Source: Terebella lapidaria
Taxonomy: Eukaryota; Annelida; Polychaeta; Terebellida; Terebellidae
Direction: 5' to 3'
DNA length: 64,000 nt
Assembly: GCA_949152475.1 (NCBI GenBank)
Contig: OX424568.1
Span: 6,237,667-6,301,666, forward strand
In this document: positions 182-48,500 of the stretch, in pieces
Numbering within the stretch: the first letter of the stretch is position 1
How the letters are laid out: the number at the start of each line of letters is the position of its first letter
Notes under the pieces: model-generated
The model's database searches: none
What the model was told of the DNA's origin: nothing
What the model saw: only the letters and a program-made list of their open reading frames with translations
Made by a program: the position numbers and the translations under genes

Positions 182-2038
182 TTTCAATTTCGTCGACCGA
201 TGCCGCACGGACGTGCCTGCAGGTGAATGTAGCTGTGGTCGAGATCCAGGTGCCGTTATCAACGTCTCCTTTCACCACTTGACAGCTCGCCATTGCTTGT
301 CATCGAGTGTTTACGTTCGCGTTCATCCGACTGGAAGCTAGGGACAGTATCAATCCGCTGCCCGTAAGTGTGTTGTGTTCTCCACGCATCATTGCTTCCT
401 GTATAACCACCGTCGTCGCTGTACATAACCATTAACCACGCATCACCTCACCGAGTGAGTGCTGTTTCGCCGTGGACGAGTTGGACACGTCGCACACCTT
501 ATTCCGCATCGTTGGATCGCTATATCCTCACGCTCGTCATCATCCTCGCAACCTACGTGTCGGACGTCATCCCTGCTGACGGGGAACCGCGGCCTTGTCA
601 TCACAGAGAGACGCCCGGGACACAACAGACAACAGTATCGTCTTTGCGTAGGATCGACGGAGCTGTTCCACAGGTGTGTGTACTGCCAGCAATGTGTGTA
701 TATGCTTCAGACTGGTATTGATTTTTTACGCCTCAGTGAGGATTTTGACATTTACACTTGCTAGTGTTGTGAACAAGTTGTCAAATCGTTGCTTGACCTT
801 TTGATTGAGTTCATTGTTTCTTATTTACAAATTATAAACCATGGTATAATTTGTAGTATGTAATATTCTCCATTAGATATTTGTTTGTTCTAAATATCTG
901 GTAGTTTGTAAAGATATTCACAGTTCTTTACATCTCTGTTCATGCCGCTAATTGTACAGATTCGTGGGTAGAGTGTATGTGATTGCAGTATTGAACGATA
1001 CTGATTGGCTTTCTCTTTGAGAGATACTATATATATTTGTGAGTTCACATTCACAGTTTGTAATTTAATTCAAAGGAACCATATTACATTTTGTGCTAGG
1101 AATCTGCATTGTCTTCAGTGGTGAGTTGGAATTGATTTATTGTTAGGAATTAGTTAAGTAACAAGACTTTGTCTGTTAGTTGACTGTTCATTGCTCCTGT
1201 TCACCCATAGATCAAGCATATTCTTAGATAGGGTATATTAGTATAAGAGGGTCCTTGCTGTGGGGTATTGTAGATAGATAGTTCACTTAGTTAGTTTGGG
1301 TAGTTTGTAGTATTGTGTTGGGTGACTTGTGTTATTGTGCATGTGCATGCAGCTGCTTGTTTTTTTTTATAACATAACTTGATGTCTTGGTAGGATAAGT
1401 GCTTGCAAGTTGCATGATTAGGTGTTTACTTAAGGTGTCTATACTTAAGATACTCTGTTGTACTTGTAGTTAAGTAAGTTGGTTGCCAGATAATTTGTGA
1501 TTCTGTAATTAAGTTAGGTATATAGTTGTTATTTAAGTGGGTAATAACTTATATTTACACTTGTACTTAGGTAGTTGAAACAAATATTGTTTGTGTGTGT
1601 TAGTATTTTATTACAATATTGGTATTTGGTTATTAAGTTAGTAGAATTTGGGTATTATACCATCATTATAGTCTCATGTAGATTTCGTGTAGTTAGCCTG
1701 TTAACAAAAGTAAAACATATTAATAATTCAGTGATAGGGTAAATGTAATTACACCTATTCCCAAGTCACTTGAAATATTTGCTACCTGCTTATATATATG
1801 TTTGGTGGTGATACTTGGTGAAGTTTCTTTTGTGCGTGTCCTTTGAGTTGTAGCTCGAGTACATATGTAGTTCGGACTCACCCTCCCAATCATTGTTTTA
1901 CTGCATCATTTAATGTCAGGGTTTCTTTTTGTGTTTTTTTACCACATCATCTACTTTCAGCTTTTTGTTTAGGTACTTTCAGGTCTTTATTTCTAGGACA
2001 CTTGGTTCTTTGCACCTGGGCGGTTGCTGTCATACAGC
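182..2038 (+). other. Long untranslated leader of the retrotransposon
   Basis: About 1.86 kb lies between the primer site and the gag ATG. The first 600 bp are of mixed composition with short overlapping open frames (443-764) that resemble nothing I know. From about 780 the stretch is T/A-rich, with recurring TTAGT, AAGTTAG and TAGTTTG words. It probably holds packaging, dimerisation or translation-control signals, but this is inference only. Confidence 0.6.
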
Positions 2039-3022
2039 ATGTCTCAGGAGGACCAGAATCCCGGGGCAGGCCCGGATGACTTAGTTACAACTTTGAGGAA
2101 CTTGTCTCCGACAACAAGACGCAGGACTTTAGCTCAGCTGGATATCCAGGACCGGATCGTCGTGGAAACTCAATCCCATGCTCCCAGCCGGAAGCTCAGG
2201 CTCTTCTCTGGTAAGACCCCTATCCCTTCCGGTGAAGTGGATTATGATACTTGGCGGTTGCTGGTTCGGCAGTTGGAGGAAGACGGCACTTATTCCGATG
2301 CCGAGAAGAGAAGGTATCTTTTCCAAAACCTTCTCCGCCCAGCACTTGACACAGTTAAATCTGTATCTGGGTCTTTGTCCGATATCCTGAAGATTCTCGA
2401 CAATGTGTACGGAACTGTCATTGATGGGACGGAACTTCTTATCAGATTTCACAACACCTATCAAGCTGACAAGGAGTGTGCTTCTGCATACCTTCAACGC
2501 ATTTACTTGTCGGTTATGGAGGCAGCAGATAATGGAGGTTGTCGTGTCGCTGATGTTCCTGGTTTGCTGTTGAAGCAGTTTGTTCGAGGTTCTAGTGAAG
2601 AATCGCTGATTGTCAAGTTGAAGCTAGAAGAGAAGATTGATGATCCTCCCCCCTTTGCCGACCTTCTACTTTCCCTGCGTAAGGAGGAGAGCAAGATGAC
2701 GGAGAAGCGGCTTAGGCTTAGGTCTGCTGGTCGATCCGGACTTGGGGAACCGGAGCTTGTTTCTAAGTTGGAGGCTAAGATCACTCAACTGGAAGCTCAG
2801 GTTCAGAACATGGCTGCTAGTCCAAATCCCCCATTGTCGTCAAGTGATCCGTCTACTTCTAGGAAATTTGCAGGACAGAGGCCTTCTAGCTCGAAGCGTC
2901 CTGGGGTATTTTGTTATCGTTGTGGCCAGGATGGACATCGTATCAGCACTTGTAAGAACTCCAAGAACCCAGGTCTTGTGCAGGAGAAATTGGAGGAAAG
3001 GTTTCGCTCGGGAAACGAGTAG
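2039..3022 (+). CDS. gag: Gag polyprotein with CCHC zinc knuckle
   Basis: This is the structural capsid/nucleocapsid protein of the element, 327 residues from the ATG at 2039 (context CAGCATGT). An in-frame ATG at 2024 is a poorer start. Residues about 50-240 form a helical Gag domain whose opening (LRLFSGKTPIPSGEVDYDTW) resembles the capsid-derived PNMA family of vertebrates. Residues 292-305 are a retroviral zinc knuckle, C-x2-C-x4-H-x4-C. A predicted coiled coil precedes a Ser/Pro-rich linker. The frame overlaps pol, and a -1 slippery site lies two codons before its TAG stop. Confidence 0.93.
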   Translation: MSQEDQNPGAGPDDLVTTLRNLSPTTRRRTLAQLDIQDRIVVETQSHAPSRKLRLFSGKTPIPSGEVDYDTWRLLVRQLEEDGTYSDAEKRRYLFQNLLRPALDTVKSVSGSLSDILKILDNVYGTVIDGTELLIRFHNTYQADKECASAYLQRIYLSVMEAADNGGCRVADVPGLLLKQFVRGSSEESLIVKLKLEEKIDDPPPFADLLLSLRKEESKMTEKRLRLRSAGRSGLGEPELVSKLEAKITQLEAQVQNMAASPNPPLSSSDPSTSRKFAGQRPSSSKRPGVFCYRCGQDGHRISTCKNSKNPGLVQEKLEERFRSGNE

Positions 3023-3052
3023 GGATATCTGGTTCAGGATCTTCGGATATCC
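3010..3052 (+). promoter_or_regulatory. -1 ribosomal frameshift signal (slippery heptamer plus hairpin)
   Basis: G GGA AAC at 3010-3016, read in the gag frame, is a canonical X XXY YYZ heptamer. Six bases later GGATATC (3023-3029) can pair with GATATCC (3046-3052), with wobble extension inwards. Spacing, frame direction (pol is -1 to gag) and position just before the gag stop all agree with programmed frameshifting. Confidence 0.85.
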
Positions 3053-6000
3053 GAGTGTGTCAAAACGGTCCTGTGTTACCAAGCCTGGTCGGTCATACTA
3101 ATGAATGTAAGGTGAAAGTGGATGAGATTCCTTGTCGTAGCTTGTTGGATACGGGTTCCATGGTATCCACAGTTGCAAAATCCTTCTTGAAGTCACACTT
3201 TCCAGCGTTGCCTGTGTATCCTCTCTCTGATTTGTTGGTGATCAAAGGTCCATTGGATGATAAGCTTCCATATGATGGCTTTGTTGAATTGGAGTTGACC
3301 TTTCCAGTAGGGGACAGGGATTTACAGGTTGGAGTCTTCCCAATTCTTGTGTCACCGGACACACCCTACAATGTGAATGTCCCAGTTCTTATCGGAACAA
3401 ATGTGTTGCAACGTCTCTTTGATTTGGTGGACAGTTATGAGATTCAGTCGGGAAATACGCTCGACCCATGCATTCGACTTGCGCTTCAGGCTTTGGATTT
3501 ACGGAAGCGACATCTAGACAAGAGTGATGGTGTCTATGGCTTACTCCGTTGTGAGGAGCCAGTTCTGCTCAAGCCTCAGGAAGTCACTGTTGTTCGTGCT
3601 CATGCTCAGATAGCTATTCCCATTCCCCGGGCTCTTGCTTTGGTTCAGGATCATGTGCGAGATCCCAAAGGTACATCAGAGGTAGCTGTTACCCCAGGTT
3701 TGGTCCGGTTGTCAGAAAAGGAGTTGGTGTCGGTTGAGATGGCAAATCTCACAGCTAAGGACATCCATCTGATGGCCAATTCGGTGATTGGTGAGGTTTG
3801 TGAGGTCCAGTTGGCGAATCCTGAGTCCTTGTCTGATGTGGAAATGAAGGCGTTCTTGGAGCAGTTCAAGTTGGAAGGGTTGGAATCTGTGGTGTCTACG
3901 GATGATCTCACTAAATTGAAGAAGCTCCTTTTGGAACAGAAAATGGTATTTGCCCAGTCTTCGAATGACTTGGGTTGCACTTCTTTGTTCAGGCATCGTA
4001 TCCGTCTTAGTGATGATACTCCATTTAAGGACCGTTCCAGGCGGATTCCACCTGGTTTGTACGAGGAGGTTAGGGAACATCTGTGTGATATGATAGAGTC
4101 TGGAGTGATCCGGGAGTCATGTAGTCCCTATTCTTCGAATGTAGTCTTGGTCCGGAAAAAGGATGGGTCTCTTCGTCTATGCATCGATTATCGTCGCTTG
4201 AATAAACTCACTGTGAGAGATGCATATGCCTTGCCCAGGATTGAGGATACTTTAGATGCACTCAATGGTTCGTGCTGGTTTTCCCTGATGGACCTTAAAA
4301 GTGGGTACTGGCAGGTGGAACTCGAAGAGGAAGATAAACCCAAAACTGCTTTTAGTGCAGGCAACCTTGGTTTTTATGAGTTCAACCGTCTTCCTTTTGG
4401 CCTCACAAATAGCCCAGCCACGTTCCAGAGGTTAATGCAGCATGTCATTGGTGATTTGCATCTCAAGTCTTGCCTCGTTTATCTGGACGACGTTATCGTG
4501 TTTTCGAAGACCATTGAAGAACATCTTCCCAGACTACAGGAGGTTCTCGCTAGATTGCAGGCGGCTGGTCTCAAACTCAAGCCGAGTAAATGTAGGTTTT
4601 TGCAGCAGAAGTTGACATATCTCGGACATGTTGTCTCTCGGGATGGTATCGAGTGTAATCCAGAGGGTATTGAGGAGTTGTTGTCATGGAAGGTCCCCAC
4701 GTGTGTGAAGGAACTTCAGAAATTCTTGGGCTTGGCCGGCTATTTCAGACGGTATGTCAAGAATTTCGCTCGGATTGCACGTCCCCTGCACTACCTAACT
4801 GGTAGCACTAAAGGTAAGGATGGTCGGCGTATCGCCGTTCCGTGGTTGTGGTCTCAGGAGCAGCAGTCAGCCTTTGATATGTTGAAACAGGCTCTCACTA
4901 GTCCTCCTATACTGGCATATCCAGATTATTCCAAACCCTTCATACTCCGGGTAGATGCCAGCTATGAGGGCCTCGGGGCTGTTCTTTGTCAAGATCAGGA
5001 GGGTGTCACCCGTGTTATCGCCTATGCTAGCAGAGGGTTGAAGAGATCCGAATTGAACTACTCATCGAACAAGTTGGAGTTTTTGTGTTTGTACTGGGCA
5101 GTAACCAAGAAATTCCATGATTACCTTTATGGTAATAAATTTTTGGTTACAACGGATAACAATCCGCTCACATATGTCATGACCACTGCTAAGTTGGACG
5201 CAGTTGGGCACCGTTGGATGGCTGAGTTGTCCACTTATGATTTCGAGCTGGCTTATAAACCAGGGAGGTGTAATGTGGATGCCGATGTTTTGTCCAGGAA
5301 ACCCAGGGGTCCTCGGGGTATGTCGTCTGCACAAGTATCTGAGGTGTGTCGTTCATTGGAGGATGCTCGGGCTGAAGATTTCCATGGCTTTGTGCACAGT
5401 CTGGTCACAGATTCGTCTGGCGAAGTGGCTGCTAAGGTGGTTTGTCCTGGGGTGTCCAATTTACCTTCTTTGGACGTTGATTGGCAACAGGAACAGTTGA
5501 AGGATCCAGTCGTAGGTCAGATCCTGAAGTGGAAGCTGGATGGTCGTAAACCTGTGTCTGCTAATCTTTCTCCAGATCTTCGCCTGTACTTGCGATTTTG
5601 GGAGAAATTGGTGATTGTTGGGTCAGTGCTGTACCACCGATCCAAGGACTGTGATCAACTTGTATTACCATCTTCCTGGAGAAAAGAGGCTTTTCGTCTT
5701 CTGCATGACGAGATGGGTCATCTGGGCAGAGATCGGACTGTTGCATTCTTTCGTAGTAGGTTCTACTGGCCTGGTATGGTGAAATTTGTGGAGAAAAGTG
5801 TCAAGAATTGTGATCGTTGTCTTCGGACTAAGGCACCAAACCTTCCGGATAGGGCTCCGTTGAAGAGTATCCTGTCCACCCAGCCAATGGAATTGGTTTG
5901 TGTTGACTTTCTTGGTTTGGAAACATCGAAAGGAGGATATGATAACATCATGGTTGTCACGGATCACTTCACGAAATTCGCGCAAGCATATCCCACTAGA

Positions 6001-7191
6001 AATCAGACAGCTGTAACCACAGCGAGGATTTTGTTCGACGATTTCTTCGTGCACTATGGGTTGCCCAAGTACATTCTCAGCGACCAAGGTCGTAACTTTG
6101 AGAGCAGGGTGATTCATCAGTTGTGTTCGCTGACAGGGGTGAAGAAGATAAGGACAACTCCCTACCACCCTATGTGTAACGGGATAACGGAGCGAATGAA
6201 TCGCACCCTCTTGACAATGATGCGTACCTTGTCACAGGAGCACAAGGCTGATTGGAAGTCGTTCCTCCCTAAACTGGTTCACGCCTACAATTCTTCAAGG
6301 CATGACACAACTGGGTTCTCTCCTCATTACCTCATGTTTGGTCGTGAACCCAGGTTACCGGTCGATGTGTTGTTTGGTTTGGGCAATTCCGGTACATCCA
6401 GTTCTGGTACAGATCCCGTTCCGGTGGACGAGTCTTTATTTGTTTCGAAGCTCCGCAAGCAGCTCGAATATGCCTATGCGTTGGCATCTGCTAATATGTC
6501 TTCTGCTTCTCAGAAGAATAAGCATCGGTATGACCTCAAGGCTCGAGGTTCTGTTCCGGAAATTGGGGATCGTGTGCTCCTGAGGAGCGTTGGTGTCCGT
6601 GGCAAACATAAGTTGGCAGATCGCTGGGAGCCGGGTGTTTATATTGTTGTCGATCAGCCTGACCCCACTCTCCCTGTTTATTCCATTCAGAAGGAGAACT
6701 CTCGTGGGAGGATCCGGACAGTCCATCGCAACCTCATTCTACCCCTTGAGGCTCCAAAAGTGACCAGGCAGGTGGATTTGCAAAGTTCGGGTAGCGAGTC
6801 ATGTGTCCCATTGGTGTCCGTTGTGCCTGCTAATCACCCTCTTCCTTCATCTCATTCTACACCCCATTCATCAGGAAAAGCAACAACAGTCGAAACTAGT
6901 GAATCGACTTCTGAAGCGGCTAGTTCATCAGTGTCGAATAGCTCGGCTTCTGAGTCTGATCTGGATCAGAGTTCTGAATCTGATCATGCTGAGGTCCCGC
7001 CCCTCCGTAGGGGTACCAGGGTTCGTCGTCCCCCTTCGTGGATTCGGAGTGGTGATTTTCATACGTTTTCTCAACGTTGTCATCAATCTGGTGCGACTGT
7101 TAGTAAGTTCGACTTACTGGTGAAATTGTACATATCATTCCTGGATCATCATTGTCGTTTGTTCAAACAGCTCCTTTCTATTGCTTCATGA
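3010..7191 (+). CDS. pol: Pol polyprotein: protease, RT, RNase H, integrase
   Basis: The -1 frame relative to gag is open from 2956 to the stop at 7189-7191. No convincing ATG of its own is present, so it is probably made as a Gag-Pol fusion by frameshifting at 3010. Numbering codons from 3055, the aspartic protease signature LLDTGS is at 30-35. Reverse transcriptase follows with LMDLKSGYWQVEL and the catalytic YLDDV near 476-480. RNase H begins near 630 (LRVDASYEGLGAVL). The integrase zinc finger HHCC starts at H884. The integrase core shows VDFLG, DQGRNFE and an E 35 residues later (DD35E). A GPY/F-like module follows near 1150-1220, then a Ser-rich tail. All catalytic residues are present. 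Confidence 0.95.
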   Translation, partial: GKRVGISGSGSSDIRVCQNGPVLPSLVGHTNECKVKVDEIPCRSLLDTGSMVSTVAKSFLKSHFPALPVYPLSDLLVIKGPLDDKLPYDGFVELELTFPVGDRDLQVGVFPILVSPDTPYNVNVPVLIGTNVLQRLFDLVDSYEIQSGNTLDPCIRLALQALDLRKRHLDKSDGVYGLLRCEEPVLLKPQEVTVVRAHAQIAIPIPRALALVQDHVRDPKGTSEVAVTPGLVRLSEKELVSVEMANLTAKDIHLMANSVIGEVCEVQLANPESLSDVEMKAFLEQFKLEGLESVVSTDDLTKLKKLLLEQKMVFAQSSNDLGCTSLFRHRIRLSDDTPFKDRSRRIPPGLYEEVREHLCDMIESGVIRESCSPYSSNVVLVRKKDGSLRLCIDYRRLNKLTVRDAYALPRIEDTLDALNGSCWFSLMDLKSGYWQVELEEEDKPKTAFSAGNLGFYEFNRLPFGLTNSPATFQRLMQHVIGDLHLKSCLVYLDDVIVFSKTIEEHLPRLQEVLARLQAAGLKLKPSKCRFLQQKLTYLGHVVSRDGIECNPEGIEELLSWKVPTCVKELQKFLGLAGYFRRYVKNFARIARPLHYLTGSTKGKDGRRIAVPWLWSQEQQSAFDMLKQALTSPPILAYPDYSKPFILRVDASYEGLGAVLCQDQEGVTRVIAYASRGLKRSELNYSSNKLEFLCLYWAVTKKFHDYLYGNKFLVTTDNNPLTYVMTTAKLDAVGHRWMAELSTYDFELAYKPGRCNVDADVLSRKPRGPRGMSSAQVSEVCRSLEDARAEDFHGFVHSLVTDSSGEVAAKVVCPGVSNLPSLDVDWQQEQLKDPVVGQILKWKLDGRKPVSANLSPDLRLYLRFWEKLVIVGSVLYHRSKDCDQLVLPSSWRKEAFRLLHDEMGHLGRDRTVAFFRSRFYWPGMVKFVEKSVKNCDRCLRTKAPNLPDRAPLKSILSTQPMELVCVDFLGLETSKGGYDNIMVVTDHFTKFAQAYPTRNQTAVTTARILFDDFFVHYGLPKYILSDQGRNFESRVIHQLCSLTGVKKIRTTPYHPMCNGITERMNRTLLTMMRTLSQEHKADWKSFLPKLVHAYNSSRHDTTGFSPHYLMFGREPRLPVDVLFGLGNSGTSSSGTDPVPVDESLFVSKLRKQLEYAYALASANMSSASQKNKHRYDLKARGSVPEIGDRVLLRSVGVRGKHKLADRWEPGVYIVVDQPDPTLPVYSIQKENSRGRIRTVHRNLILPLEAPKVTRQVDLQSSGSESCVPLVSVVPANHPLPSSHSTPHSSGKATTVETSESTSEAASSSVSNSSASESDLDQSSESDHAEVPPLRRGTRVRRPPSWIRSGDFHTFSQRCHQSGATVSKFDLLVKLYISFLDHHCRLFKQLLSIAS

Positions 7192-39521: not shown

Positions 39522-39589
39522 ATGTCTTCCGAAAGCGACGTAGATGAGTTTTTCGACGCCCAGGATGTCACACCTGTTCGACAATCCAG
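39522..39589 (+). CDS. WDR44: WDR44 exon 1 with FFAT motif
   Basis: It opens [15 protein letters not shown]. Residues 9-15 (EFFDAQD) fit the FFAT core EFFDAxE behind an acidic stretch. It aligns with the vertebrate start SESDTEEFYDAPED. Donor AG/GTAGAT, phase 2. Confidence 0.88.
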
Positions 39590-42500
39590 GTAGATTTTTA
39601 CTTGGGTCCGAGTTTTGGGTCACAAATCTCATTGCAAATGATCTCGATTGTTTGTTGTTGACAATGAATTGATGAATGACAGTTGGCAGTGACTGAGTGT
39701 CAATGAGTGACTTGAAAGTTGTTCAAGTTGATAAACACCAGAACTGTTCGGACATTTACATTTGGACTATCTATTTGCAGACTCAAATTATGTTGACTCT
39801 AGGCCTATCAGTGGAGAAGCACCCCCGTTAGGTTGTATATGTCCCATATGGTAGCATACTGCCTTTTAAAGATACTTTCTTGTTATACCAAACGGGAAAC
39901 CGCCCCCACACTCGCTATAAAAGGCGATTTTCCCGCCAAGTCGGTCTCAGTCGGCCTTTGAAGACAAAGGTAAGTGGTACAGGGCATTGTCCATTATCGA
40001 ACATAGTACTTGGTATCGTCACAGAATCACCACGATAATCAGGATCCAATCATGTTTAGTGTTATCTTTGGACTTCATATACTATCCGATTACAAGAATC
40101 GATGTGAAATGTTACATACGATACCTTGTAACGTGTTTCCTTGATAAATAAGACAAAATATCTTACTGTTTCGGAAGAAGTCCCCATCAGGTGTATCAGT
40201 TGCTGCTTCCGGTTGTCTCAGAGACAATAATCATCCTCCTCATTATCTGGCTGAAAATATGAATAGCCGACGTTGTAAAAACTCGGAGAAAATGTGGCAG
40301 CAGCTACACTGTGTGAACATTATGACAGGAAAAAGCGATAAACATTGTAAAGTGTACACCTCAATTGAAGGCTTTTTCAAAAATATAAGAAGTGTTATTT
40401 GTTCCTTTTGGTGATTAAACGTCCGGTTTTGGTTGCTACATGGTTTGTTTCAATATAAGAATGTAAATGTACGTTTGAATTGGGACCATATAAACCCAAC
40501 CAGTCCAACCGTTTACTAACTTAGCCTCTAGGGGTATAACATGTTGATGGGACACGGCGGGCGTTCAGCAATGAAGAGGGCAATAACCAGTCCAGCAAAT
40601 GCAAACCCAGAATTGTGGCAATCGCGAGTTTGTACTGCAACATCCAGAATGCTGTAATATAAATATGTGGGATTGTTTGGGTCCACACAAAACGTGATTT
40701 CGGTAACGTACACTGCTTTAACGGGCCCTCAACATGTTCAGTGATTGCTCTCAGCCACACCGTGTCCCGTGGCCATGTTCCACCGCTTCAACATATGGTG
40801 GATACTTGGTGTTGCATGTGACATCCCCATAATACATGTACTATTGAAGTTATGGAAAAATTATTGGATTGCAGATTATTGCAATATATAACATGGATCC
40901 ACGAGTAGTTGTGAGTAGCAAAAAGGGCAAGTCGGTGGCCAAGGCGAAATTGATCCCAAACGGAAGAAAACGGTCAACCACTCTGTGTAAGAGGAGGAAA
41001 ACTCTGTTTAAGAAGGTGATACCTGGGGTTGTTGACATATTTGAGGGTGGTGGAGGAAATGTGTGCAGTTCCTAATTATTAATATTGTTTCAATCTTATT
41101 TTAGCACATACTGGTATCATGCCATTGTCATGCAGCTCATGATGAACAATGAATATTAAATGCACACGTAATTTTCATAATACGAAAACTGTTTTTTTTT
41201 AACATTTCAGATGTTTCACTCAGCAATGTTATACTAACCGAGATAGTTACTGAATTCATTAACATCTCCACTTCTTCCTCCACCTCATCTAGCATACGCA
41301 AAAGTTGTGCCTTTGTTTTTGCCGATTTCAATGCACGGTGAGTGTCAGTTGTGTCGTCGCCCAAATCTTCCAAGTGTGATATCAGAAACAAAATATCTGT
41401 CTTCAATTCCGCGTTGGTTTTGCGGCTGTGGCTGCGCTCCTCTGGCAGGAAATAAAGCTGCTCCCGAGGGGTGTTCTACCAAAGATGTATCACATGAAAA
41501 TTTCAAAATGTCATAGAAGGAATACTCCCAATGGGAATCTCCCTGTTAGTGTATGTTTCAATAATGAATATGAAGTTTTCATACAGGTTTCTTTGTGACC
41601 CCCACCCTCCCCCAAACATTCCCATGTTGTGTATTGCCATCTTTCACAAGTTGCAGTGCTGGTGTAGATGCAGAGAAATATTGTTATTTCACCTTTATGG
41701 CCGACTCTATGTCGTTAACAGTCTCTATATTGTGGCGTACTGATGCTTGGCGGCTCTTGGCTTTCTGTGTGATGTTGAGAACTGAAGTGTCCAATACCAC
41801 CCCATCCAAAGATGTCAAGGTGCCTTGCTGGTCGAGATCCGTCAGGAATTGTGAGTCGCGCAGGAGATCTCTCACAGCCCGCACATTTGCATGTTCAGGG
41901 CCTCGTGCTCGGGTGTATGATTTGTGGTCCCAGTCCATAAGGCCTCCAAAGTGTTGTCTAATCTGTTAACACAATAATGGACATATGGTGCCGTTTCCGC
42001 TGTGTGAATCAATGATTGTCAACTTGCATGATAACTGTGATTGCAATATAATGAACACATTAATATATATTGAGTTTGGACAAATAATATTATCATTGGA
42101 CTGCCACTTTTCTGATAACATTTATATGCTTTAAGTGTGAATCACATAAATTAAGCATGTCTGAATACAATTTACTTTGTATGATGTATTTAGTGTAATA
42201 TTAAGTTGCGTAAAAAAGGAAATATAATCGGTGATATGTTATTGAAATATACAACAGCAAGCGAGATTAGTTAAAACCCATGCCAAACGTTAGTATTTAC
42301 ATATTGGTCAATAACTTTTCAAGGCCATTGAATTGCATCTGGCCACCAATACGGATGTGATGGTGTGGACCAAGACTGAAACTGGAAAGACGGCATACTG
42401 GCACAATGGGGTGGAGTATCCAGGTGATGCCCCTCAGATCCTGCCACATGAGGGAGCACAACCGCGGCTGCAGCAACAGGAACAGCCGCAGCCACAGCAG

Positions 42501-45500
42501 CAGGAACAGCCGCAACAGCCGCAGCCACAGCAGCAAGAACAGCCGCAGCAGCCGCAGCCACAGCAACAACCCCATCAGGCACAGGATGCACAGCAGCAGC
42601 AGCAGCAGGCACCACCAGACAGGAAGGAAGCGTCAACGCAAACAGCATGCGAGGGCGCAACAACTGATGAGGTTTCTTTATACTTTCACTGATCATTAAT
42701 ATTCATTTTTGGTTTATGTCCTAGAAGTGTGAAATGACATGAACTGTCACAAATTTCAACAGAACAAGGACGACTGCCCGTTATGTCATCTGGCATTTGG
42801 CACAGCGGCCGACCGAGGGAAAGTGTGGCTGAAGTGTGAGCAAAAAAAATGTCACTATTGGTGCCATGCCCGATGCGTCGGGATCTATAACAGTAAGAGG
42901 GATCTGAAGGGCGTCAAGTGGTATTGCCAGAAACACCGACATTGAGTGCAGCAGGTGCTGTTTCATTGATTGTTTACTTTTTACTCAGCACTTTGTACAA
43001 CAGCACAATGCAGAGGAGGCCATGACATGATTGCACTGTGCACATTTGACTGTACGTGTTGCATGATACCATGAAATATTTGTTTGTTTCCATTAACACT
43101 TTTTCACTCACAGAAATGTTGACACGATTAACAGGAACCACTAACAATAAATTCATTGATCTGACAGTGCAGTGTCCCCCATGCACAGCTCCTTATACAG
43201 CAGTTTTGCATGTCCGATATTATGAAACAAGGTTGTGAATGTATTATTAACAACTTAACACATGAATCACGATGAAGGTGTTCCAAAAGTATTTCCTATT
43301 TTTGCAGGTACTACCGACAGCAAAATATGCAGGTGCCAGTTAAACGAAGAAAAGGGTTATTGCCAGATCAAGTGTGCTGTGCTGATTCTCAGTACTGAAG
43401 GGCCGTTCAAAATGTGAATGGCACCAAGTGCAAAGTCATTAACAGGAAGTGTGTTGTGCAAACACTGCCACTCGAGTGTACAACAACAGTTATAGTTGCA
43501 CTGCACCAACCAGTTCTCGATGTTAAAGGATGTCAAATACTCCATGGAGTACGAGGTGCTGCGATACTGGCATGCCTCATTGCAAAATTCCTTCTGCTGG
43601 GATTTCCCTAAGGCTTCCGCCAGCAATTCCAGTTGCGTTATTGTCAGCAGTCCCTTGGATATGGCATCGACAACTGAGTTGACCAGCTCATCCACACTGA
43701 AGGACTTCCCCTGTGGTTGTTCCCCCGATGAAGCAACACCATCATCAACAAGCAGTTCTTCCCGATCTATGACCTCTCTCTGTGGGCATGAACTTCCTGA
43801 AGCGATGCTTTGAAAGTCTTGTCTCAAGCTCGCACAGCATGCACTACATATGTATGACCCATGTGGAAGGATTTGTTTCTCCTCAATCATGAACTGACGT
43901 AGTCGACCCGATACCTTTTTCGATGCTGTCAGGTGCCAAATCTGATGAGGTTTATTTGCTGATCGCCTCTCATGAGTGACGCAACAACATGCCTTGGTGG
44001 ACATCACCTGAAAAGGAAGACCTTGTGGGAGCGTACTGCTAAATACATTGTGTACACACATGACGAACTGTTTCAGTAAATTATGTGTAGGTGAATTGCA
44101 ATGTCTCATTGTTAGGAAAGGCGGAATGTCGTGTTAATGTCACAATCAAAACAGCAGCGTTCAATGAAAGCCAATCAAAGTTGTCATGAGAAATTTACAT
44201 CATATTGTGCCCCTGTTTTGCTCAATACTAAATGCACTGCCTATTTCAGTATTACCATTTCTGACACAATGTTCCATAATCTTTATGGAATTTGCACTAC
44301 GTAACAATATCTTGTTTGTTCAATTTGTCACTATTTTGTTCACCTTTCATTTTAAAATCACACTGACGTAAATATTATTGTTTTCATCTGACATACATGC
44401 TGTATTCATTATGATTCACAATATGTTTATCACAATATTTGTTGTCCTCAACGATTGGTTTCAAAGCCTCAATTAAGTAATTGACACGTTCATTTTGGAA
44501 GTAATGTGATTTCACGAATTATGCAGATTTTACAGACTAATGTAACACTGTTTTAGCTATTACGTGGTGATTGGTTTTGGTTGTGTATATTTTAATAAGC
44601 TCCTCATATTTTCAGATGTCGGCCCTGTGTCTTCATCATCATTGACAAGGAATAAATGTTCAACACTTCTTCATTATTTCAGATAGATTGCCAATTTGTT
44701 TCCATATTTTGGATAAATAAATTATTCGTAATGGTGTAATTACTCATCAATGATATGGATATGTGTAAGAAACATTTCCCTGTACAATGTGTCCACGTTG
44801 AAGCATGTATGATTACCAAACACAAAAATACCACTTTATTACAACAAACCAACAAAGCAACAAAGCCAATTCTATAATCTGAACCTCTCGAGGTCCACAG
44901 GCAACAAATAGCGTTCAAAAGCTCCCATGACTTCACGCAAGTCGGACAATCGCACTACTAGTTCATATCTGCAGGGTATCACTGCACCACCCCCAACTCG
45001 ATCGTGCCGTGCACCACGCCTGTATCGTTGGTGAACTGGAATGTCATGCGGATGGGATGGAGGGCCAGTGACAGTCGTGTTGATGTCTCCCACCAGTAGT
45101 CCACGCACCCAAAGGTGCCTCATAGCGGTTGACAAATTTGCTGGCACTCTCCCCACCTGAACATCATCAGTAACTCTCATGACCTTCATGGCGTTTACAT
45201 CATGACGATTAAAATACTCGGGAAACACTCGAAGACTGTCGTGCGGTGTTGGGTGTACACGAAAAATGTGATAACCTTTTATTTCCCACGTGATGGAAAT
45301 AGGGTTCATCTGGAAATAAAACAAACATTTGTCTTTCGTCATAAATACATGCTTCAACGTATGTATCGTTGTGTGTGTAGCTGTGTGTGTATGCGTGTGC
45401 AGTGTGGATGTGTGCGTATGAGCGGGGGAGGGGGGGGGGGGGGCATCGCCTGCATCATTGTTAACTGTGAACAGGCATTTTAGCTCCTGACATACTTATT

Positions 45501-48500
45501 TATTGTTTATCAATTTAGTTTTATAACTTATGAAAACTTATTATTTCAACATCTTTCAATTCCAAAGTCATACACAGGGTTGTTATTCATATATTGTATA
45601 TTAATGCGTACCTTAATTGGTGAATACTATTTATATTGGAAGTCATTGACCATACGTATATGTGTACTGGGCTATGTTCAATAAACCAAATTTCAAGTTG
45701 TACGTGTTTTAATTCAATAGCATTCGTGTCTTCAACGCTACAATAAACAAAATTGGCATATATGTTAAGAGTATAACATTGTGATTGACTCGCCAAACAA
45801 TGGCACAACAGAGTCTTCCACACTCCATATTCTATTTTTGAATATGTACAATGTACAATAACAATATTTAGCAAAAACAATAGTATTTCACTCCTTGTCC
45901 CTGCAAATGTAGATATTGGGACCCTCAAGTGGTATTTCTATCTAAATACAAAGTTTCTTTCACGTATTTGTATTACTTCCCACAAACAATTCCTAAACTA
46001 CCGCTTCCAATTATTTGGGGGCATTTTTCATGTTTTGACCAAGATGGTCATTCTTACACATGATAATTTCGGGATCAAGATGTTGTATGTCAGTTATCTC
46101 CATGATACACCGGATATGCTATTTGTCGTTGACGCGAAAAAAAATTAGGACACCAACAAATACCACCAGATATCACTTAAACGACAACATACATGTTCAA
46201 AAGTCATCACAGACGGTTTCAACAACCAGGTAACTACTTATTAACGCATATCATTCGGAAAAATAACGGATCTTACTGTTCCAGGCGATTCTAGGTGAGC
46301 GATAATATGCCAAGATTCTGAACAGTTGACAGGTCCTCTAAGCTGTTGTTAGTGATTTGCCCGACTGACACCGACTTGGCGGGAAAATCGCCTTTTATAG
46401 CGAGTGTGGGGGCGGTTTCCCGTTTGGTATAACAAGAAAGTATCTTTAAAAGGCAGTATGCTACCATATGGGACATATACAACCTAACGGGGGTGCTTCT
46501 CCACTGCCTATCTAGTAAATAAAGTTCGACACAAAAGTGTCAAAACCTTGACGACCTGGCCGCCAGTCATCATGGTCAGATACCATAATATTCAGACGTA
46601 TTCAGACAGAACGATTGCTTTTCGATCGTGTGATAGGCCGTTATATTCTATGTGATCGATTGCATTTGTTTACGCATCGTAGCAACAAATTCTATCTGGC
46701 CAATAACGACACGTTGTGCATTGCCTCCCATTGAATGAGCAATATGTGCGAGATCTGAATAAATTCCTTGTGCATCTTCTCGCCGGTTTCAGTACTGACA
46801 GATGTTCAAGTTGTCCAAAACGCAGGAGATATTCATAAAATCATCACATCTCTCACCAAAACACAAGCCATGTTACCAGTGTTACGTGACTTTAGTTACG
46901 AAGCTTTTTCAATGATGACGTTTTTATATCTTATATGTAATTTGCTTGACAACATTGACCTGCGAGATGGGTTTCGCCCACTCTTGGTGGCCAGTGTTGA
47001 GATGAGCAATAGAGGGTGAGAAATGATGGTCATATCAACTTCTATCTAGCGCCATTTTTTTGTCATACAAACTCAATGGCGTGTCATGCAGATCGTTAAT
47101 CATAGGAATAATCAGTTGTGGAGAAGCATTCGAAAACATTCTGTTTGTGAGTAAGGGCACCAAAATGAAAAATCTTTTCGGGCAGCGATGAAAAATACTT
47201 TGGAACCTGTTTTGGTTGTGGAAAAGGAGTTTGGAATTGACAGTCTTGATCCACGTGTTTGGGATTATGAAATATTATTGTGCTTAGATAGGTAGGTTCG
47301 GAAAAGTTGAGGTCATTGAATGTTGTAACATTGAGTTCAAACGATATTTAATGGATAGCCAGAGTATTTCCTTAAGCTTGTGTGACACGGGTGAAATGGC
47401 GGGCACACGTTAGGATACGACACAAGCCATTTTGAACTTTTAGAAGTCTGTCGATGTATTGATTGGGTACCCTGTATATATAGGAGTTAGTTGCAATAAT
47501 CAAGCTGCTGCTGGCAAGGCCCAAATCTCAAATTGACCCAATTATCCCAAACAAAGGTATGGGCAAAATCATCCAAGGTTTTGTGTTGAACTTGACTAAT
47601 GTTAGATGTCTGATGATTACTAGTAATTCACCTAAACCAATCGTGGTACAGACAACTCAGTTGCCTGGTGATTGCTAGATCTGATATTTCGGCATTGTTC
47701 CTTTTGTATATGACTAATACGAGGTGTCTGTCCTAATTTCGCCACATCCCTGAATTACCCAACCAACGGTTTTGCTGGGTGCTTGCCCTTGTCAACTGCT
47801 AAAAACTCAAATCACGGCTGAGTGCAGAAAAGTTTGACTTTTCATCAGCATCAAGGTCAACAAAATAAAACAGAATCTAGCAAGAATAAAAGACTGTTTA
47901 TGAATTTAGGGATTTGGCACACTTAGGGTGGATAGCCCATAACCAACTGATTAATTGTCAGCTGGGTCGAGTCTTTCACGTGTAATTCAACCAATTGATG
48001 ATCCATTCCTGATCTCTGATTACCCAAAATGTAACATTGAGAAGAACATGAAACACAAATCACAATTCCAGAAAGACAAAGTAGATCAATAGAGTCGGTG
48101 ACTCGGCGACCTATCAATGCGGAGTCCTCTCATAAAATTCATAAAATGCTTCCACCACTTTAGTATTACTTCTTGCATTTACTGTTGATGGCTATACATG
48201 TTGTTTGAAGCTTCTTAAAAATCACCATGTTTTTTTTAATTCCGGAACAAGTGTAAATATGTGCTAAAGTCCATCTTTCAGTGACTTGGTGCACTGTGGG
48301 CCTGATGGGGCTATCCAGTGCAAGTCTGGGTCATGTTTTCACAAGTATGTGGCACGACATAACTTATCTGCCCATGAACTAATATTTTGTTGATTTCATT
48401 GGTAGGTTGCAGTCGAAGAGCAGTGTATCAGACGTGGAGGTGAGAAACATTTAGACTAACTCGAATCGTTTACTGCAGTGCACTTTGCCCGGTCTTCATT

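Follow-up and report, generated by a model that had tools for sequence, protein, structure and literature searches.

The 64-kb window of Terebella lapidaria DNA analyzed here (64,000 nucleotides; contig OX424568.1, positions 6,237,667 to 6,301,666) contains an element bounded by inverted repeats at 39,809 to 46,506, which raises the question of what kind of element this is and which enzyme moves it. The original prediction described an element with cargo genes and no visible transposase, perhaps a cargo transposon. We consider it probable that this is a recent copy, shortened by an internal deletion, of a class II DNA transposon from a lineage that carries three genes. This reading is carried by the ends of the element, the duplications flanking them, the gene anatomy (with predicted splicing), the deletion, and the conservation and co-occurrence of the three genes. 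We further propose, as a claim that could equally well hold or fail, that the lineage is a new cut-and-paste superfamily in which a DUF6589-like catalytic transposase is accompanied by MADS-PHD and HIRAN partners, a RAG1/RAG2-like organization reached independently.

Ends of the element and relatives sharing them

The element is 6,698 bp long, occurs once in the window, and is bounded by 146-bp terminal inverted repeats (TIRs), which differ by one mismatch, at position 138, and end in CAGTGG and CCACTG. The 5-bp sequence CCTAT directly abuts both outer ends. The near-identical TIRs (145 of 146 positions) together with this duplication, both already noted in the original prediction, are far beyond chance, and the element is real.

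In the host genome (761.6 Mb, 438 contigs), we found 12 TIR matches, including both window TIRs. Eight of them form four facing pairs, namely, the window element and copies of 39.5 kb on C15, 16.8 kb on C4, and 9.1 kb on C2, and three of the four pairs are flanked by a perfect 5-bp duplication (CCTAT, TTAAC, and ATGAA). Two hallmarks of TIR-type class II elements were found: inverted repeats, identical at 145/146, 144/146, and 143/146 positions in three copies, and a duplication of constant length, 5 bp at three sites with differing sequences. A search with a 22-base end pattern, allowing up to two mismatches, returned 10 places, six of them exact, and the reversed pattern, used as a control, returned one. 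The ends of the lineage read CAGTG(G/A), with one decayed end reading CATTGA. With these ends, long TIRs, and 5-bp duplications, the lineage is assignable to no named family tested, as the original prediction had suspected.

The 39.5-kb relative (L013-L016 and L024; C15:12163900-12204200) contains a unit of ~6.5 kb about three times at 98.6-99.9% identity; the units, and also the region close to the right end, hold ~50-bp minisatellite-like arrays. It also contains an open reading frame (ORF) with an integrase core (L016:4293-5576; rva_4, 132.8 bits) and an adjacent ORF, which probably belong to another inserted element. Given the repeated unit, the arrays, and the integrase-core ORF, we rejected the idea that this copy is simply one very large autonomous element. 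In the 16.8-kb relative on C4, gag-/pol-like ORFs at L017:2720-7878 resemble, by eye, a long terminal repeat (LTR) retrotransposon, which would explain part of its length.

Gene organization and internal deletion

Segment L013 of the 39.5-kb copy contains an uninterrupted ORF of 789 amino acids (4153-6519), and its residues 1-214 match the Cys-rich ORF of the window element at 99% on the amino acid level. This Cys-rich protein, listed in the original prediction, is a real ORF and, judging from the match, represents the N-terminal remainder of a larger, truncated protein. The initial 3.7 kb of the window element correspond to L013 266-3957 and the remainder to L013 from 5882 on; the intervening 1,924 bp (3958-5881), which hold most of the 789-residue ORF, are absent from the window copy, and the junction shows ~1 nt of microhomology. 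A deletion within the window copy is the simplest reading, and the undeleted element would measure ~8.6 kb (6,698 + 1,924). The putative enzyme gene of the window copy is incomplete because the 1.9-kb internal deletion took its core. A cargo transposon without a transposase is therefore no longer an apt description, since a putative enzyme gene is present and the "cargo" is a conserved gene set. Looking for longer relatives with the same ends, as the original prediction had proposed, proved to be the right check: the 39.5-kb copy has the putative transposase ORF in L013, and the 9.1-kb copy carries the same gene.

The organization suggests three genes. Gene 1 would encode a putative transposase of ~900 amino acids with an N-terminal Cys-rich region, the conserved, Asp-bearing FDN and G(C/S)DG motifs, a zinc knuckle, and GHxE and DxHKS motifs. 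Gene 2 encodes a protein with a probable HIRAN domain, and gene 3, convergent and interleaved with gene 1, a predicted MADS-Q/P-PHD protein. Two exons of gene 1 (B and C) are predicted to sit within intron 1 of the antisense MADS-PHD gene; exon B is kept in L019 (38% of amino acids) and L059 (51%), and exon C is kept in the same two copies.

Gene 3 is predicted to comprise three plus-strand exons with GT-AG sites in phase 0, giving one spliced protein of 217 amino acids in which a MADS domain, split by an intron, is followed by a Q/P-rich linker and a PHD finger. This predicted protein matched Pfam SRF-TF with 41.3 bits (E 1.1e-10), above the cut-off of 26 for membership, and serum response factor (chain 1hbx_A) in the PDB with an E value of 3.3e-5. 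The PHD finger scored 25.6 bits in Pfam as a single ORF (cut-off 24) and 22.1 bits within the spliced protein; at its last ligand position His replaces Cys, as read by eye. MADS-PHD exon 1 is kept in L019 (71% of amino acids) and in the C8 element (42%).

The original inventory of domains needs to be amended in part: its PHD finger exceeds the Pfam cut-off, whereas the window HIRAN domain falls below it, and the MADS (SRF-TF) domain and predicted exons B and C had been missed. Among six relatives scanned with the HIRAN model, only L049 passed the cut-off (25.2 versus 24.7 bits); L055, L051, and L034 matched weakly, and L043 and L019 gave no match at E ≤ 0.05. With the HIRAN protein as the query, a PDB sequence search gave no match, PHROGs gave weak matches only, to families of unknown function, and the viral and prokaryotic collections searched held no relative.

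The same arrangement is found in L019, the divergent 9.1-kb element, which is bounded and flanked by a 5-bp duplication of its own. It carries the same large gene, with 53% identity over 512 amino acids and 75% over the next 106, and contains HIRAN, transposase exons A-C, MADS exons 1 and 2, and PHD in the same interleaved order as the window element. L019 has 18 ORFs with 85 or more amino acids. Ten were scanned, two of them holding exon B and the end of exon A, and among these ten we found no viral family and no further enzyme; the other eight are the ORF of a MADS exon and seven ORFs that overlap the others on the opposite strand.

Table 1 Features of the window element and its insertion site (window coordinates)
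Feature	Position	Strand	Basis or remark
Likely exon 1 of WDR44-like gene (host context)	39522..39591	+	By-eye reading; element downstream
Target-site duplication, left, CCTAT	39804..39808	.	Sequence; identical to 46507-46511
Left TIR, 146 bp, start CAGTGGAGAAGCACCCCCGTTA	39809..39954	+	145/146 identical to right TIR
MADS-PHD exon 1, predicted; first half of MADS domain	40893..41015	+	GT donor at 41016, phase 0
Putative transposase exon C, predicted	41239..41439	-	Splice sites
Putative transposase exon B, predicted	41693..41962	-	Acceptor AACAG, donor AAAG/GTGAAA
MADS-PHD exon 2, predicted; second MADS half and Q/P-rich linker	42324..42671	+	Spliced protein matches SRF-TF
MADS-PHD exon 3, predicted; PHD finger	42763..42945	+	Pfam PHD; kept across subfamilies
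Internal deletion junction	43496..43497	.	blastn of junction against L013
Putative transposase exon A, N-terminal remnant; Cys-rich and helical parts	43497..44004	-	Matches L013:4153-6519 residues 1-214
HIRAN-domain gene, 145 amino acids	44872..45309	-	Pfam HIRAN 21.4 bits, E 2.3e-4, below cut-off 24.7
Right TIR	46361..46506	-	Sequence comparison with left TIR
Target-site duplication, right, CCTAT	46507..46511	.	Sequence; same as left CCTAT

Features of the large protein

Searching the genome with the large protein gave 77 matches, with identities from 100% down to 23%, in 41 neighborhoods; these neighborhoods derive from 65 of the matches, each of the remaining 12 being no more than 2 kb from a counted one. 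Five close copies (C8, C13, C1, and C7) share about 96-99.5% identity across their aligned parts, and three of the five have an uninterrupted frame of 841 amino acids. In an alignment of seven members, six of which are 30-52% identical to the first, the invariant residues include D266, D272 (in FDN), D454 (in G-C/S-DG), and C471, C474, and H487 of the zinc knuckle, together with H517, D558, H560, K561, and S562. An RNase H-like enzyme would be compatible with the two Asp motifs. We rejected D272-D454-E519 as a settled triad, because L042 and L044 have Gln in place of this Glu, that of the GHxE motif.

The Pfam families matched by the seven homologues at E ≤ 1 include no hAT, KDZ, polymerase, integrase, RAG1, or Transib model. 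NCBIfam contained nothing relevant, and a PDB sequence search gave weak matches only with the transposase and one match with its N-terminal part (E 1.9). Three of the seven members weakly matched DUF6589 (PF20231), the best with an E value of 7.8e-5 and 22.0 bits against a cut-off of 27 for membership. The matched places are collinear, with L055 and L034 at model positions 45-127 and L049 at 327-402. We suggest from these matches that the large protein is distantly related to this uncharacterized family. Carried by both the 39.5-kb copy and the bounded L019, it is by inference the transposase of the element, although of no named transposase family.

The DUF6589 model itself gave 76 matches across the genome (C17:25861721, C2:6105786, and 74 other places), 75 of them above the cut-off, and none in 14 control genomes. 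By eye, these 76 places and the 77 transposase matches do not overlap anywhere. Many of the genuine DUF6589 matches lie in uninterrupted frames, and they may belong to other transposons of the same type.

Conservation and co-occurrence of the three genes

The genome search for the accessory genes, like that for the TIRs, had been advised in the original prediction, and it returned seven matches for MADS exon 2, 22 loci for PHD (two pieces on C15 being merged), and 12 distinct loci for HIRAN (three tandem copies on C15 being counted as one). Because pieces of the window element itself served as queries, divergent copies were missed. Sequence no farther than 5 kb from a transposase match makes up about 0.09% of the genome. 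Six of the seven MADS exon 2 matches fall within this distance, and the seventh is 21.7 kb off; the same is true of 18 of the 22 PHD loci, with another 21 kb off. For HIRAN, the count is eight loci at up to 5 kb and 10 at up to 12 kb, with distances determined by hand. All three genes were found alongside transposases of 53% (L019, over the core), 43% (the C8 copy), and 37% (L043) identity, and in members that diverge further two of the three were seen.

The ratio of nonsynonymous to synonymous substitution rates (dN/dS) was 0.15-0.33 in the seven of 13 pairwise comparisons with unsaturated dS, one of which rests on a dS of 0.01 and several of which involve decayed copies; in the other six, all against L019, dS was saturated. 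The PHD, HIRAN, and MADS genes are a gene set conserved in the lineage and not random cargo.

A PHD locus (C3:9502952) and a HIRAN locus (C3:9530440) lie 27 kb apart with no transposase match, and perhaps represent a more divergent or decayed member.

Neighboring sequences

WD40 repeats are encoded at 54.6-55.1 kb of the window, beyond the element, which apparently sits in the first intron of a WD40-repeat gene. We take this host gene to be WDR44-like. An Rfam scan gave no match at the gathering threshold. Elsewhere in the window, at 1997-7191, gag-/pol-like ORFs of 341 and 1411 amino acids resemble, by eye, an LTR retrotransposon. Large ORFs at L023:637-5760, within the 10 kb ahead of a single TIR end on C2, resemble, again by eye, a DIRS-like element with a tyrosine recombinase and a reverse transcriptase.

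Discussion

RAG-like transposons are the nearest parallel in outline. RAGL/ProtoRAG elements combine a large transposase (RAG1L) and a convergent, PHD-bearing accessory gene (RAG2L) with TIRs and 5-bp duplications (PMC7204232), all of which recur in the element studied here, the transposase as a putative one. A divergent relative of RAG-like or Transib elements, with a zinc-finger transposase and a convergent PHD accessory gene, would account for this likeness, and the PHD finger of L042 weakly matches RAG2_PHD (16.6 bits, cut-off 27). However, the seven homologues gave no RAG1 or Transib match, no kelch match was found in the scanned proteins of the window copy and its relatives, and the exons are interleaved. 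The TIRs begin with CAGTG(G/A), in the window CAGTGG, and not with a CAC-type heptamer, the protostome RAGL consensus being CACTWMCAAAC (PMC7204232). The additional MADS and HIRAN domains have no counterpart in RAGL elements as far as that description goes (PMC7204232). The element fails the tests for membership, and we regard such a relationship as quite unlikely.

CAG ends are typical of hAT elements, and an element of hAT5 type that had lost or replaced its own transposase, with the DUF6589-like protein as an accessory and a hAT transposase acting in trans, would retain them. hAT5 is also a published hAT group with 5-bp duplications (PMC12730594), as found here. This account is nevertheless unlikely: no hAT model matched the seven homologues or the eight further ORFs scanned in L019, and apart from the gene of the large protein, no enzyme-sized gene was seen to be shared by related copies. 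The KDZ transposons (Kyakuja, Dileera, and Zisupton) share the principle of a DNA transposon with an accessory gene of chromatin- or DNA-modifying type, TET/JBP in their case, but make 7-8 bp duplications (PMC12730594), compared with 5 bp here, and no KDZ model matched the homologues. Some Ginger1 transposases have a PHD finger, inside the transposase, with TIRs of ~40-270 bp, and the Ginger2 elements TDD-4 and TDD-5 make 5-bp duplications; these groups differ in their gypsy-type integrase, the 4-bp duplications of Ginger1 (CCGG, CCGT), and the TGTNR termini of Ginger2 (PMC2836005).

Gene capture by TIR elements is known, and the window copy, which has no complete enzyme gene, could be taken as a nonautonomous element of the Pack-TIR type with host fragments of PHD, MADS, and HIRAN genes. 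The recurrence of the three genes, interleaved, in L019, where synonymous sites are saturated relative to the window copy, and dN/dS values below 0.34 against nearer copies make this very improbable; L019, L043, and the C8 copy largely contradict it. The original prediction also raised the possibility that the element is left over from a transposon-like DNA virus or is a satellite of one; for viruses of Polinton or adintovirus type, this hardly seems credible. The length of two relatives, whose ends lie 16.8 and 39.5 kb apart, and the rva_4 integrase-core ORF could point in this direction, but this ORF was seen in one copy only, within its unshared part, according to ORF lists compared by eye. 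Neither polymerase, integrase, nor capsid, which characterize Polinton/Maverick elements, was matched in the window ORFs scanned or in the ten scanned L019 ORFs, which contain no viral family; the partly scanned 39.5-kb copy gave the one integrase-core ORF and, in the ORFs scanned, no polymerase or capsid. Viral, phage, and prokaryotic collections, which contain few eukaryotic sequences, held no relative of a TIR 20-mer, the whole element (phages), the transposase protein, or two alignments.

Several observations weigh against a transposon lineage with its own enzyme and three conserved genes. At the ends, the C4 TIR pair has no duplication, four TIR matches are single ends (C7, C17, C13, and C2 at 3.3 Mb), and no TIRs were found in the 1.4 and 1.6 kb flanking the C8 copy, so that bounded elements are seen only for the window and C2 lineages. 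The L019 transposase is damaged by two stops and a frame change, and the PHD exon of L013 is frameshifted. Three of the 22 PHD loci, and the HIRAN loci at C15:22.62 Mb and C3:9.53 Mb, have no nearby transposase match; in the stretches examined, L034, L049, and L051 have HIRAN and PHD and no MADS, and L042 and L044 have MADS and PHD and no HIRAN. As for the enzyme, the Gln in the GHxE motif of two members leaves a D-D-E triad unestablished, and the invariant acidic residues are all Asp. PDB profile searches with the transposase gave weak matches only (best a zinc finger, E 0.003), and all three DUF6589 scores lie below the curated cut-off. Catalysis and the accessory roles are putative.

If the element is such a deleted transposon copy, its mobility can be pictured as follows. 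On the model of other TIR transposons, the TIRs would be bound by the large protein, which would cut and rejoin DNA with a 5-bp stagger. The window copy, its core missing and hence unable to make the whole protein, would depend on enzyme supplied by other copies. MADS domains are known to dimerize and to bind DNA, PHD fingers to bind the tails of histone H3, and HIRAN domains to bind DNA 3' ends. The MADS domain could accordingly provide sequence-specific DNA binding, the PHD finger could read histone tails and steer integration or the element's own transcription, and the HIRAN protein might bind DNA ends at intermediates of excision or integration or at the gap left in the donor.

The element is of a known kind, a DNA transposon. 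In the literature searched, with most subscription papers and Repbase Reports outside it, we found no transposon with HIRAN, MADS, or DUF6589, no transposon-encoded MADS-domain protein, and no occurrence of the name DUF6589. The combination of a transposase with HIRAN and MADS-PHD proteins was not found described, and a Repbase entry may exist. If the superfamily reading is true, it would give a function, that of a transposase, to proteins around an uncharacterized Pfam family with 76 matches in this genome, and would suggest that its many anonymous DUF6589 genes are transposon genes too. It would also provide a second type of transposon, like the RAG-like elements, with a separate PHD gene beside the transposase, and two such PHD-carrying lineages would allow a comparison of why transposons recruit histone readers.

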